Of a stretch of 64,000 nucleotides of DNA, positions 22,379-47,045 are shown in pieces (position 1 is the first letter of the stretch; the number at the start of each line of letters is the position of its first letter). The notes under the pieces are model-generated. The model was not told the DNA's origin. It searched no databases and was given only the letters and a program-made list of their open reading frames with translations. The stretch comes from Vibrio sp. SCSIO 43137 (lineage in GTDB: Bacteria; Pseudomonadota; Gammaproteobacteria; Enterobacterales; Vibrionaceae): assembly GCF_028201475.1 (NCBI RefSeq), contig NZ_CP116383.1:1364001-1428000 (forward strand). The letters run 5' to 3'. The position numbers and the translations under genes are program-made.

Positions 22379-22624
22379 GGTCTTTGGGAAATGGTAATGC
22401 ATACCGGACTAGTTTAATAAGTGCAGAGTCTGGAGATGTCGTAGCTTGCAGAACAAAAAGCAGGGAGTAGTACAGAAAGGGTCTTTGGCTTGTTTTCTTG
22501 CGATGGTGGAATAAGAAATAAGGCTAATATGCTTTATTTTTTAGATGGTTATGGTAGGTTGATTGAAAATTAGGAAGGCGAAAAAACGAGCCTGCCGGTT
22601 ATTAAGAACGTTAAGAGGCAAACC
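22379..22624. other. Intergenic stretch before the cassette array
   Basis: Apart from the direct-repeat copy, I see no gene here. GTTAAGA at 22610-22616 fits most of the GTTRRRY core used by integron recombination and may mark the left boundary of the first cassette. No full attI or attC can be drawn around it. Confidence 0.35.
22392..22451 (+). repeat. Left copy of diverged direct repeat
   Basis: Begins TGGTAATGCATACCGG and ends CTTGCAG. The same order of bases recurs at 31078-31138 with scattered changes (GTGCAGAGTC against GTGCAGAATC in the middle). The two copies lie near the two edges of the variable stretch between rplY and the two-component genes. Confidence 0.6.
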
Positions 22625-23113
22625 ATGATTACGCAGCAAGTCACAGCAATTGCATTAAGGCTTTTTTCAATCTGGCTTTTAATTCAGCTCATCTTGAATT
22701 TACCAAGCTTTGTAATGCTATTCGCCAGCGTCGGGCAATATCAGCAACAAGAAATGCCTATGGGTGTTTATGCTGGCCTCATCGGAGCATTTATCCTAGT
22801 TGGCCTCATTGCCGTATTCTTAATTAACAAAGCAGCCAATTCTGTATTGAGTCGTGCTACGTCTGATTCTCAGGCAACGTTGAGTAGCGACTCTCAAAAA
22901 GTATTGTTCCAGCTAGCGGGCTTGTATTTTGTCGTTAACGCCCTAGCTTATTTACCTCGCTCATTATCATTTCTACCAAACACTATAGAAATATCATTAT
23001 CAAGCGTTCTTTGGCCTGCTGGTTTGGTGTTCCAATTGGCTGTTGGATTATGGCTTGCTAGTGCATCAACTTTCTGGCTCAATTTGTTTAAAACGCTGCG
23101 AGGCCGTGCCTAA
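22625..23113 (+). CDS. Cassette 1: four-helix membrane protein, unknown function
   Basis: 162-residue protein I do not recognise. Four hydrophobic segments lie at about residues 8-35, 47-68, 98-115 and 125-155, joined by a polar loop rich in Ser, Asp and Gln (about 70-92). The protein has no signal motif, enzyme motif or cysteine cluster. Its stop codon is 4 nt before the first clear attC site, the arrangement of an integron cassette. No strong ribosome binding site is visible. Confidence 0.7.
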   Translation: MITQQVTAIALRLFSIWLLIQLILNLPSFVMLFASVGQYQQQEMPMGVYAGLIGAFILVGLIAVFLINKAANSVLSRATSDSQATLSSDSQKVLFQLAGLYFVVNALAYLPRSLSFLPNTIEISLSSVLWPAGLVFQLAVGLWLASASTFWLNLFKTLRGRA

Positions 23114-23117
23114 TGCC

Positions 23118-23198
23118 TTATAACAAATCAATCAATGTTGACCCTACGGGGCTGGACCTCAGCACTGCGTGCTCCTGTCCTTTATTGAGGTGTTATAA
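23118..23198 (+). repeat. attC1, integron recombination site
   Basis: 81-bp imperfect palindrome immediately after the cassette 1 gene. Outer arms TTATAAC (23118-23124) and GTTATAA (23192-23198) are exact complements; next inward, TCAAT faces ATTGA. A central AGCAC/GTGCT hairpin and GGAC/GTCC arms complete the site. Cleavage would fall after the G at 23192. Confidence 0.8.
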
Positions 23199-23201
23199 CT
23201 C

Positions 23202-23576
23202 ATGGGAGATTACGTGTTAGTTTGGGATGAAACGGATGTATTGGCTGTGCTTGAGGCTGAGCCAGAAGTTGAGGTCGATGGAATTTGGCACAAATACACC
23301 GTAACCAAAGGAAGCATTACGCTCGCCCTAACCATTTATCAATATGATGGCGATGTCAGGATTGAGCTGTTTAGCGAAGAAAGTGAGCGCGCCTTATTCT
23401 CAATGCTGCTAATCGATTGTGCTGGCGTAGCAAGAAAATATGAGCGGTCTCAAGAATATCTAGAGTTCGCTCCGGCAAAGTGTTTTGGCTCGAACAGATA
23501 TGACGGGGAATCATCTATTCCTTATGGTGTCCGGGTTTCAGTTAAGCCAAGTGTAAATGTGTCATTGTATGGGTGA
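23202..23576 (+). CDS. Cassette 2: acidic soluble protein, unknown function
   Basis: 124-residue protein with no signal peptide or membrane segment, rich in Glu and Asp. I do not recognise the family. The ATG at 23202 lies 3 nt after the attC1 core and has no ribosome binding site. An in-frame GTG at 23214 has GGGAG (23204-23208) 5 nt upstream and could be the true start. The gene fills the whole space between attC1 and attC2, the compact layout of a cassette. Confidence 0.7.
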   Translation: MGDYVLVWDETDVLAVLEAEPEVEVDGIWHKYTVTKGSITLALTIYQYDGDVRIELFSEESERALFSMLLIDCAGVARKYERSQEYLEFAPAKCFGSNRYDGESSIPYGVRVSVKPSVNVSLYG

Positions 23577-23579
23577 AGA

Positions 23580-23639
23580 TATAATAAGTTTAGGTATGCG
23601 ACGGCTACTCCGCAGCCGCACATGCTAAAGGTGTTACGT
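23580..23639 (+). repeat. attC2, integron recombination site
   Basis: 60-bp site. The 3' core is GTTACGT (23633-23639); the 5' side reads TATAATAAG, so one arm base is mismatched. Inner arms TTTAG and CTAAA pair, then ATG/CAT, and CGGCT/AGCCG forms the apex. The exact complement of its 3' core, ACGTAAC, opens attC3. Confidence 0.7.
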
Positions 23640-23648
23640 GTATAAATT

Positions 23649-24044
23649 ATGAATCCGGTGCTACATGAATTAATAGTGTTATTTCTTTCTAGAGTTAAAG
23701 AAGCGGAAGAAATAATGAAAGCACACTTTGAAATCGAAGAACCACGGTACTTCAGGCAAGAAGGAATCAGCAGGACTGGGAATTTTGATACTTATTCCTA
23801 TGCATTTCACGGAATTGGGTGCTGCTTTAGTTTCCACAACCTTACCGTAGATTACGACTATGCAGTTGATGGCCGTATTGATGGCTTTGATTTGTGGAGG
23901 CTTTCTCGATTTGGGGAACAATTTGATGAGTTTAAACATTATATTAAATCAAAGAAGATTGATTCTGATTTTGAGCTCGCTAAAAGAAATGAAGATATAG
24001 TCAGGTTCGAACAGGGAAATCTGTATTATGTTGCAACCACGTAA
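23649..24044 (+). CDS. Cassette 3: small protein, possibly DUF6896-like
   Basis: 131-residue soluble protein. Features are an N-terminal helix (HELIVLFLSRVKEAEEIMKAHF), an aromatic middle with GIGCCFSFHNLTVDYDYAVDG and DGFDLWRLSRFG, and a charged C-terminus. The middle reminds me of the DUF6896 family, a group of unknown function seen in polymorphic-toxin and immunity contexts, but I cannot confirm that. It lies 9 nt after attC2 and its stop overlaps the left arm of attC3. Confidence 0.65.
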   Translation: MNPVLHELIVLFLSRVKEAEEIMKAHFEIEEPRYFRQEGISRTGNFDTYSYAFHGIGCCFSFHNLTVDYDYAVDGRIDGFDLWRLSRFGEQFDEFKHYIKSKKIDSDFELAKRNEDIVRFEQGNLYYVATT

Positions 24045-24097
24045 CAAGTCCAGTCAGAGGGACGCAGAAAACTGAACCCCGATTGGCAGGTATTATG
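24039..24097 (+). repeat. attC3, degenerate integron recombination site
   Basis: The left arm ACGTAAC (24039-24045) is a good core, but the right arm reads GTATTAT (24090-24096) instead of GTTRRRY. The internal TCCAGTC and GATTGGC regions are partly complementary. It may be inactive or a recombinant between two sites. Confidence 0.5.
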
Positions 24098-24114
24098 AGT
24101 CGGAGTGAGTCTGA

Positions 24115-24594
24115 ATGAGAAACTATCTGGTACTAATCATTTTGTGTATTAGTGGGTGCTCGTCAATCGTTACAAATGAGCTCTATGCAAGCAATGTGGC
24201 TAATAAATGTTTCGAGGTGGTTGAGCCATTCGATATATATATGAGGGAAGATTACGCCTCAAAAGAGTACATCGTTGGCACCGATGAGAGCTACATTCGT
24301 ATGTGGGGGACATTTCGTGAGAAAAAGAGTGTTGTTACCACTTTGCCCGTTGGGGCTGAATTAAAGGTTATACGAATTCAGAGCTTTTCTCGTGGCTCAA
24401 CTGGCCGTTGTTGGCGTGTATATGCAAAATCCGAAGAGAACTTTAGTGAAGAGTTTGAGCTTCCGGCATGCTGGTCACTAACTTCAAATCCGTGGGTTTC
24501 ACCTGATTCACCTTGGGATCTTAAACAAGGAGGTCTTAACTTAGAAATGAATACAAAATATTTAGAAATAAAACATGCGTGTAAAAACTCATAA
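24115..24594 (+). CDS. Cassette 4: predicted lipoprotein, unknown function
   Basis: 159-residue protein with a short signal peptide ending in a lipobox (LCISGC, Cys at residue 15), so it should be exported and lipid-anchored. Mature Cys residues at about 29, 99, 119 and 156 could form disulfides. I do not recognise the fold; the segment VTTLPVGAELKVIRIQSF resembles small beta-barrel/SH3-like proteins. GGAG lies 9 nt before the ATG. Its stop codon is inside the left arm of attC4. Confidence 0.7.
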   Translation: MRNYLVLIILCISGCSSIVTNELYASNVANKCFEVVEPFDIYMREDYASKEYIVGTDESYIRMWGTFREKKSVVTTLPVGAELKVIRIQSFSRGSTGRCWRVYAKSEENFSEEFELPACWSLTSNPWVSPDSPWDLKQGGLNLEMNTKYLEIKHACKNS

Positions 24595-24669
24595 TAAGTC
24601 AATCAATGTCGCCCCTTTGAGGTTGAACATCCGCACTACGTGCTCCGGCCTGTGCTGGCGGCGTTATGC
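24589..24669 (+). repeat. attC4, integron recombination site
   Basis: 81-bp site of the same length and design as attC1. Right core is GTTATGC (24663-24669), left arm TCATAAT (24589-24595). It shares TCAATCAATG and the apex GCACTRCGTGCTC with attC1, showing that these two sites belong to one family. Confidence 0.75.
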
Positions 24670-24684
24670 ACTAGGAGTAAGCTA

Positions 24685-24981
24685 ATGCAGATCATAAATA
24701 TCACTAAAAAATGGAAAGGTGGTAATGATGCCAATTTCCCTATCACTCTATCGGTTAAGCTAGAAGAAAAGAAAGTGTTTGATGTCACCGAAGGGTATGG
24801 TTGGGGATTGAATGGAGGCTCATTTACTCTGCGCGAGTTGTTTGTTCGTGGTATCGCTGATACTTTCGATAGAGAAGAGTCTAAGGAGATCTATAACTTC
24901 TTATATGAATCGTTTCGAAAAGAAGAAGATGATTTAGTTGTAGCGAAACAGCTCATTGAGAAATTTAGTAAAAATGAATAA
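24685..24981 (+). CDS. Cassette 5: small AT-rich protein, unknown function
   Basis: 98-residue soluble protein that I do not recognise. It begins with a beta-rich part (IINITKKWKGG, ITLSVKLEEKKVFDVTEGYGWG) and ends with two charged helices. ATG 24685 is selected because AGGAG (24673-24677) lies 7 nt upstream; an upstream in-frame Met at 24640 falls inside attC4. Codon use is more AT-rich than in the surrounding core genes. Confidence 0.7.
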   Translation: MQIINITKKWKGGNDANFPITLSVKLEEKKVFDVTEGYGWGLNGGSFTLRELFVRGIADTFDREESKEIYNFLYESFRKEEDDLVVAKQLIEKFSKNE

Positions 24982-25030
24982 CAAGGTGTAATTCATCCTA
25001 ACACTCTGGTGTTTTGCTATCTAACGAACA
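24976..25030 (+). repeat. Possible truncated attC5
   Basis: TGAATAAC at the stop codon of cassette 5 resembles the left arm of an attC, and AAGGTGTAATTC follows with the usual spacing. No GTTRRRY right arm can be found downstream, so the site appears truncated and marks the right edge of the array. Confidence 0.35.
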
Positions 25031-46635: not shown

Positions 46636-46651
46636 AGCCAGATAAAAAAAG

Positions 46652-46679
46652 AGCCCAATCCATTCCGGATTGGGCTTTA
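46652..46679 (+). terminator. Terminator after nhaA
   Basis: Perfect 10-bp stem AGCCCAATCC (46652-46661) with GGATTGGGCT (46667-46676), 5-nt loop, short T-run, A-tract before. Confidence 0.88.
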
Positions 46680-47045
46680 CAAATATAGGAGTTAATAAGA
46701 AAAAAAGCAGCATGTTCGCTTTCAACAGTGTGAAATCAAGGATGACCTGCAAAGCCCCCTTTCCGAATGCTCTGTTTACTTACCTAATATCAGACTTGCC
46801 TATGTGCAAACAGTTCAATTAATTTTTAATTAATTTAGAATAAATTATTAGCTTCCTCTTATGAGCACGGATATTTGCTGCTTATTCATTGATATTTATA
46901 GTTTTTCCATTTCCGGTAACAAATAAGTTTTTCAGAAAATTTTTCATTTACTTTATGTGAAAAGCATAAATGTGATGTTGCGTACTTGTTAATATTGTTT
47001 TGCGGATGTATATTTTCAAACAGTTGTTTGATACGGTTGATTGAA
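46680..47045. other. Intergenic region nhaA-psrA
   Basis: 366 bp, strongly AT-rich. Besides the PsrA-type palindrome I find no gene or further motif. Confidence 0.4.
47016..47031 (+). promoter_or_regulatory. PsrA-type operator
   Basis: TCAAACAGTTGTTTGA: CAAAC, four bases, GTTTG, exactly the palindrome described for PsrA in Pseudomonas. It lies 15 bp before the psrA start, as expected for autorepression. A half site CAAACAGTT also occurs near 46808. Confidence 0.7.

Follow-up and report, generated by a model that had tools for sequence, protein, structure and literature searches.

Clusters of gene cassettes that lack an integrase are of debated origin: decay of a complete integron, insertion at stray sites, and transfer have each been put forward, and integration into an ordinary genomic site (attG) is one route by which stray cassettes can arise. 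Here we analyze such a cluster in a 64,000-nucleotide stretch of Vibrio sp. SCSIO 43137 (the window), which spans positions 1364001-1428000 of contig 1 of a genome that comprises two contigs (4.94 Mb, completeness 99.98%); coordinates given without a locus label are those of the window. Its five short cassette genes follow directly on an integron recombination site (attI), and we read the locus as the integrase-less remnant of an integron, composed of an IntI2-like attI and five cassettes. From the sequence comparisons below we give this reading a probability of roughly 0.87.

Several described systems resemble this locus in part. Clusters of attC sites lacking integron integrases (CALINs, a term used here as in the available parts of PMC9892861 and PMC9229058) likewise hold several attC-bearing cassettes and no integrase, but the term does not cover an attI, whereas the array in the window starts at a recognizable attI with a promoter-like stretch. 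Such integrase-less clusters are common in Shewanella according to the available part of PMC9229058, which treats CALINs and single orphan cassettes and makes no mention of attI. The closest precedent that we found comes from Shewanella, where prophage M16-3 carries a single array that has an attI of its own and no integrase (PMC9892861, in the part available). That array is headed by an attI of related layout, but it is a single case and the prophage also has a complete integron, whereas the attI element described here occurs in at least 52 of 329 genomes, nine of which were checked and found to have copies and no integrase.

Class 2 integrons (IntI2, attI2) have the nearest named integrase (61% identical) and the same site layout; unlike them, the window has no integrase, no known link to Tn7, and cassettes of unknown function. 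The Vibrio superintegron shares the host genus and the cassette principle with our array, but its attC sites are mostly of another type, and the ten superintegron integrases compared are 42-46% identical to the V. chagasii integrase that accompanies the element. In Delta-attI-type cassettes (PMC12901181, in the part available) pieces of attI likewise occur away from intI and are active with IntI1, but there they replace attC at the cassette end, whereas here a long attI heads the array. Strand-biased circularizing integrative elements (SE; PMC9345347 and PMC10782965, in the parts available) are also found in Vibrio, with defined ends and tyrosine recombinases; as described in those parts they carry intA and intB and no attI or attC, whereas the unit on the V. 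gangliei plasmid pVgang, described below, is annotated with an integron integrase and cassette genes only (SE genes were sought nowhere else). In the open-access literature we found no report of an orphan or solo attI in Vibrio integrons; a prior report in subscription papers or preprints is possible.

The attI element and its cassettes

The element that heads the array was missed by the original prediction, which had recognized the cassettes behind it from the sequence alone. It ends exactly at the start of cassette 1 (22610/22611), and the sequence upstream of that cassette recurs on the second contig of the same genome, where a different gene starts at the same base. Matches to segment 22520-22625 occur at 57 places in 24 of the 148 genus genomes (own genome included), three of these places being in the own genome, and most of the matches end at or near the crossover. 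By blastn the window copy is at most 83% identical to other Vibrio copies and 85% identical to one from contig 2 of its own genome; a profile recovers the whole element with E 3.8e-30, and the window copy is itself among the 36 sequences of model R1 and of the hidden Markov model used for this match.

Fifty copies were aligned, representing 49 of the 57 places (8 were left out) and one own copy found by local blastn (L046_6823; L and G numbers are our labels for loci and genomes). Most of them end in ...GTTATTAAGAATGTTA and diverge beyond it. An open reading frame (ORF) of at least 100 aa starts within 70 bp of the crossover in 44 of the 50, as against a fraction of 0.20 for random offsets in the same loci. 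Among the 48 copies with a near ORF (two had none), 36 show a match of at least 8 in 10 positions between the start box of the first cassette and the box that follows its gene; when start boxes were shuffled among copies, this level was reached in 6.0 copies on average and in no more than 11 in any of 500 trials.

At two places in V. chagasii (G105) and three in V. gangliei (G292) the element is located immediately upstream of an intact intI, between intI and the cassettes. Its core, AAAACGAGCCGGCCTGTTATTAAGAATGTT, has a layout like that of AAAACGAGCATGCTTACTAATAAAATGTT, upstream of the class 2 integrase gene, and like that of the Shewanella attI AAACGCGCATGCGCACTAATAAAATGTT, which is printed in the available part of PMC9892861 and is also present in two Shewanella records. 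The accompanying integrase is as close to a Shewanella plasmid integrase as to class 2 IntI2 (61% identity to each), and a 19-row tree places the integrases of the element in a single group (100/100) next to those of class 2 (IntI2) and Shewanella, with the ten Vibrio superintegron integrases apart. Because the element adjoins intI, shares the attI layout, and has integrases that group with IntI2, it is, by homology, the attI of an IntI2-like lineage; its homology to the sites beside IntI2-like integrases and its junction with cassette 1 indicate that the array begins with an attI next to its first cassette. The most conserved columns of the alignment include the core, a -10-like stretch and TTATG.TA, the last invariant in 36 aligned copies, and from this conservation the stretch may be taken as a putative cassette promoter (Pc).

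Downstream lie five co-directional ORFs (Table 1), the five short genes on one strand that the original prediction had called, and the cassettes that contain them meet at boundaries (the base preceding TT) at 22610, 23192, 23633, 24092 and 24663. A cassette's start box should be complementary to its own R'' box, because the circular cassette joins both into one attC, and this pairing is a cassette signature independent of folding. Summed over the five cassettes, start box and R'' box match at 36 of 45 positions, a value that the true pairing alone reaches among the 120 possible pairings. An attC-like site of 60-81 bp had been predicted behind each gene: four such sites are complete (about 62-84 bp), and the fifth is an R'' only. 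As a cluster of at least two attC sites with no integrase, the array falls among the CALINs in this respect, with four complete sites by anatomy and closure and one significant by covariance model.

The only family assignment among the five window proteins is the DUF6896 domain of cassette 3, a protein that has no match among solved structures; the products of cassettes 1, 2, 4 and 5 have no match in Pfam, NCBIfam and PADLOC returned no match for any of the five, and a comparison of the window cassettes with plasmids gave no DNA match.

Table 1. Features of the integron array in the window
Feature	Position	Strand	Content and evidence
attI of IntI2-like integron, integrase-less	22486..22613	+	crossover G^TTA 22610/22611; blastn and profile homology
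Promoter-like stretch (putative Pc)	22528..22555	+	-35-like TATGCT, 16-base spacer, -10-like TATGGT; hexamers by eye; faces cassettes
Cassette 1	22611..23192	+	ORF 22625-23113; hydrophobic product of 162 aa with several probable membrane helices (by eye)
attC site 1, complete	23115-23198	+	covariance model E 5.8e-4; fold z -3.07
Cassette 2	23193..23633	+	ORF 23202-23576, 124 aa; ORF and boundary analysis
attC site 2, R'' degenerate	23578-23639	+	covariance model E 1; fold z -1.98; closure test
Cassette 3	23634..24092	+	ORF 23649-24044, 131 aa, DUF6896 (PF21837, E 2.8e-28)
attC site 3	24037-24098	+	outer stem only with own cassette start; energy -3.5 alone, -8.3 closed
Cassette 4	24093..24663	+	ORF 24115-24594, 159 aa, lipoprotein-like signal by eye
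attC site 4	24588-24669	+	resembles site 1 in sequence by eye; closure test
Cassette 5, end cut	24664..24985	+	ORF 24685-24981, 98 aa; attC remnant is R'' 24975-24985 only

That the window holds no integrase was also predicted correctly: none of the 16 places in the genome that match the tyrosine recombinase family PF00589 falls inside it. The genome as a whole has no TIGR02249 match above the cut-off and none at E<=1e-20 (89 of the 148 genus genomes have one above the cut-off), and a tblastn search upstream of the window attI found no intI remnant, so that the intI beside attI that marks a complete integron is missing here.

Nor are the genes fixed at this place across relatives, a circumstance that the original prediction had named as one that would speak against it. 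The rplY-glycosyltransferase pair upstream is kept in six of eight relatives fetched, and each of the six has a gene of 418-435 aa starting no more than about 25 bp past the glycosyltransferase, which leaves no space for cassettes; in the window the glycosyltransferase is followed by attI and cassettes and then by an unrelated HAD gene. Since six relatives have the same upstream pair and no array there, the array is not a fixed feature of this position in the genus.

Spread of the element across Vibrionaceae

A sequence-only profile of 36 copies finds the attI element in at least 52 of 329 Vibrionaceae genomes (own genome included) and in 3 of 13 genera; ten candidates were scored per genome, and the counts are lower bounds. 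A deeper search of 14 genomes, mostly chosen for their many copies and so not typical in number, gave 132 matches: 35 in G306 (listed with 5% contamination), 17 in G020, 12 in G295, 10 in G305, 9 in G094, 7 each in G065 and G015, 6 each in G127 and G121, 5 each in G000, G021 and G066, and 4 each in G105 and G073. Only six of the 132 have an integrase or integrase fragment no farther than 600 bp away (two each in G105 and G295, one each in G073 and G066), and nine genomes (G000, G305, G306, G020, G094, G065, G015, G021 and G121) together account for 101 matches, and none of the nine has an integrase at E<=1e-20.

The genome studied here has five attI-model matches, four clear and one weak (E 1.6e-5); a few matches elsewhere are also weak. 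Its four aligned copies are 51-75% identical to one another, and three of its copies are closest to copies from other species, the window copy being about equally near two other-species copies and one own copy. Over all 50 aligned copies the nearest relative is in the same genome in 12 cases, compared with a mean of 2.2 and a maximum of 8 after shuffling. Taken together, the excess of same-genome neighbors and the nearest relatives in other species suggest repeated acquisition of attI copies plus some local amplification.

What the copies carry is varied. The first-cassette proteins of 46 copies, of which 25 families are shown, are of kinds typical of cassettes and include acetyltransferases, methyltransferases, glyoxalase-like and SUKH proteins and many of unknown function; PADLOC matched two of the 46, which gives no indication of enrichment for defense. 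Two arrays on the own second contig have defense-related matches: UzuA of the Uzume defense system at L045 (10815-11618, E 2.1e-57) and the candidate-defense family PDC-S31 at L046 (10735-11886, E 2.9e-26). At five loci (L072, L073, L085, L089 and L104) a common short attC-like sequence (AATAAGGAT.AGTGTCGCCC...) stands right after ORF 1 and is followed by shared sequence, possibly an insertion that targets attC.

With over 100 attI sites known from 14 genomes, the majority lacking an adjacent integrase, the question of how integrase-less clusters arise becomes testable: an attI at the head of a cluster would be a diagnostic mark that separates platforms that have lost their integrase from randomly dropped cassettes, and it suggests expression from a promoter borne by the attI. 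Scattered sites without their enzyme may help explain the origin of stray integron clusters, and an IntI2-like integrase that enters such a genome could simultaneously find many acceptor sites ready for use.

Proposed mobile units with and without integrase

The complete unit behind these copies is delimited by two V. gangliei pVgang copies, which share 1392 bp (99.6%) from TGCCCC, past the end of intI, to the attI crossover, and a further 69 bp (100%) ending ..TTTTTGTCC, here called the right-end module. This module is found downstream of attI, on the same strand, at 15 distinct loci (one weak), including L045 of the genome studied here. Left junctions read approximately YTAACTCA-N4-TGYCC and right ends approximately CTGACNNNGTTY-TGTCC, which by eye makes a similar short core in the same direction at both ends. 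Inverted ends (TGCCCC/GGGGCA), seen in one copy, were dropped because other right ends have the ..TGTCC boundary, and the core pattern YTRACTCRNNNNTGYCC is no strong marker as written: it occurs 38 times in 10 genomes, its reversed control 16 times. An empty site for the V. gangliei unit was sought and none can be shown, since annotation places an IS256 element on the left of this unit and a group II intron on the other side, and at L190 (pVgang, about 8811) the group II intron annotation begins directly past the unit's right end.

Cassette 3 of the window has a DNA homologue (71% identical, with an identical start box) in a genome from another family of the order. It lies at L196 (G167:C9:1-3000) behind a different attI-like site, about 365 bp past CTAACTCAGTTCTGCCCC, and judging from this locus the left-end motif of the integron unit may be older than the attI family described here.

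Most copies have no integrase, and 16 integrase-less left arms, chosen because their left end was seen (17 were sought; L081 is missing), were aligned over the stretch between the left end and attI. A stump of the intI start (approximately ATG GTA AGT AAA, by eye) stands 86-88 bp from the left end in eight of the 16, from six genomes, a share that applies to the chosen arms only, three of the eight being from V. ostreicida; in four of the eight the stump is followed by a full LexA-like box, CTGT-N8-ACAG. Of the complete unit, the 330 bp next to attI can be aligned with every one of the 16 arms and the left 110 bp with seven at E<=0.5; the best left-end match, L078 (E 4e-9), has no stump, and the only stump arms to match are L159 (0.001), L093 (0.028) and L102 (0.20). 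By tblastn, intI stumps were found upstream of L074, L097, L075_4817, L067, L089, L090, L083_14071 and L091 among the 50 copies, and of L147; those at L083_14071 and L091 are weaker (E 2e-4 and 6e-4), and the one at L074 is the G066 fragment. A single deletion common to several species would imply spread of the integrase-less form itself, and these alignments suggest that integrase-less mini-integrons spread as units.

At one locus, L183 (G306:C2:1205500-1225400), attI-cassette units, each about 0.8 kb long, form a head-to-tail tandem, two adjacent ones with nearly the same gene; in others the genes differ and are followed, past R'', by a nearly identical tail of about 160 bp (ACACATATGAGCC...). 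At L167 (6928-7962) and in the left flank of V. chagasii C10, the two V. chagasii integron units lie about 160 bp to 2.4 kb from similar genes that by eye resemble phage-type integrases, and these two neighbors are the sole grounds for supposing that such integrases mobilize the units.

We propose tentatively, at a little under even odds, that integrase-less mini-integrons form a mobile class of their own: an attI, a promoter and cassettes, bounded by TGYCC-ending cores in the same direction, derived from an IntI2-like unit by internal loss of intI, and carried non-autonomously across Vibrionaceae, with up to 35 matches per genome and in places in tandem, by a recombinase yet to be named. Many CALINs would then be products of such units and not of decay, and the array in the window would be a copy without both ends. 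The window array does not itself show the TGYCC left end and right-end module by which a mobile mini-integron unit is recognized.

The window array may have been deprived of its integrase where it now stands, or it may have come without one. Arrival as an intI-deleted unit is credible given the unit data, among them the stump at a common distance in half of the chosen arms, the tandem units of about 0.8 kb in G306, and the right-end module kept at the own locus L045; on balance the odds lean against it, as the window copy has lost both ends and the nearest relatives of its attI include L075_4817, which has an intI stump upstream.

Strength of the attC evidence and other origins of the array

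Compared with shuffled sequences, folding as single-stranded DNA gives a clear excess of stability for attC site 1 only (z -2.74 in a second run); site 2 reaches about -2, and one of three intragenic control stretches reached -1.95. A covariance model (R2), built from superintegron attC sites of other Vibrio genomes, has its best match in the search at site 1 (23117-23198) and its second, which is not significant, at site 2; sites 3-5 were not detected by it. In a blastn comparison with superintegron arrays the window attC sites gave chance-level matches only. A home-made attC scanner based on R/L box pairing was discarded, as it returned no site in the window, one false place, and similar counts on both strands of known arrays.

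Several of these results weigh against reading the locus as an integron remnant. Support from folding and covariance together is strong for just one of the four complete attC sites: sites 3 and 4 fold no better than shuffles when unclosed (z +0.57 and +1.07), and closure on the respective cassette start adds an outer stem to each but brings z to just -1.68 and -0.39. A sigma-70 consensus scan calls no promoter at the attI. The window array also has no right-end module, no TGYCC left end and no integrase remnant, and because these are absent its descent from a complete unit is inferred from its relatives.

If the array is nevertheless the remnant of an IntI2-like integron, an integrase of that lineage would once have inserted folded cassettes at 22610/22611, as the exact junction and the closure of the cassettes suggest, and transcription starting within the attI would read into the first cassettes. 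With the integrase and both ends absent, the array would now be frozen as a fixed expression cluster, presumably inactive; reactivation is conceivable should an integrase of this lineage be brought in, as by a plasmid like pVgang.

The original prediction had left a choice between an orphan attC cluster and a piece of a chromosomal superintegron that was cut off and moved. An integrase-less array is what the window and the whole genome bear out; an origin from the superintegron is very improbable. It would agree with the host genus and with the match of attC site 1 to the superintegron model, and some other attI arrays do contain superintegron-type attC sites (e.g. G105:C10:1496532 and G021:C3:551600), but the array has its own IntI2-like attI, from another lineage, and attC sites 2-4 have no significant match to the model, so that one site in four resembles the Vibrio cholerae repeats (VCR) of superintegrons. 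The genome, moreover, has no superintegron integrase and 6 attC-model matches, compared with 125 in G034, a superintegron genome; the comparison with the superintegron of the same genome that had been suggested found no partner, as the integrase and attC-model searches detected no superintegron.

Less probable still is that a trans-acting integrase put the cassettes into an ordinary site of the attG type, the upstream sequence being a mere repeat: the available part of PMC12901181 lists attG sites among the substrates of IntI and the genome now has no integrase, but the upstream 128 bp are homologous to the interval between intI and the cassettes of complete integrons and have the same crossover end, a similar attI layout occurs in Shewanella and class 2 where an attG site would have no attI homology, and a gene lies directly past the element in 44 of 50 copies.

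Two further features of the window lie outside the array. A repeat with GGTAATGCATACCGG.CTAG occupies 22392-22452, before the attI, and recurs with 81% identity at about 31078, some 8.7 kb on. The small RNA VrrA (RF01456), at 46645-46782 on the minus strand with 55.3 bits, is the sole Rfam match at gathering level in the window.

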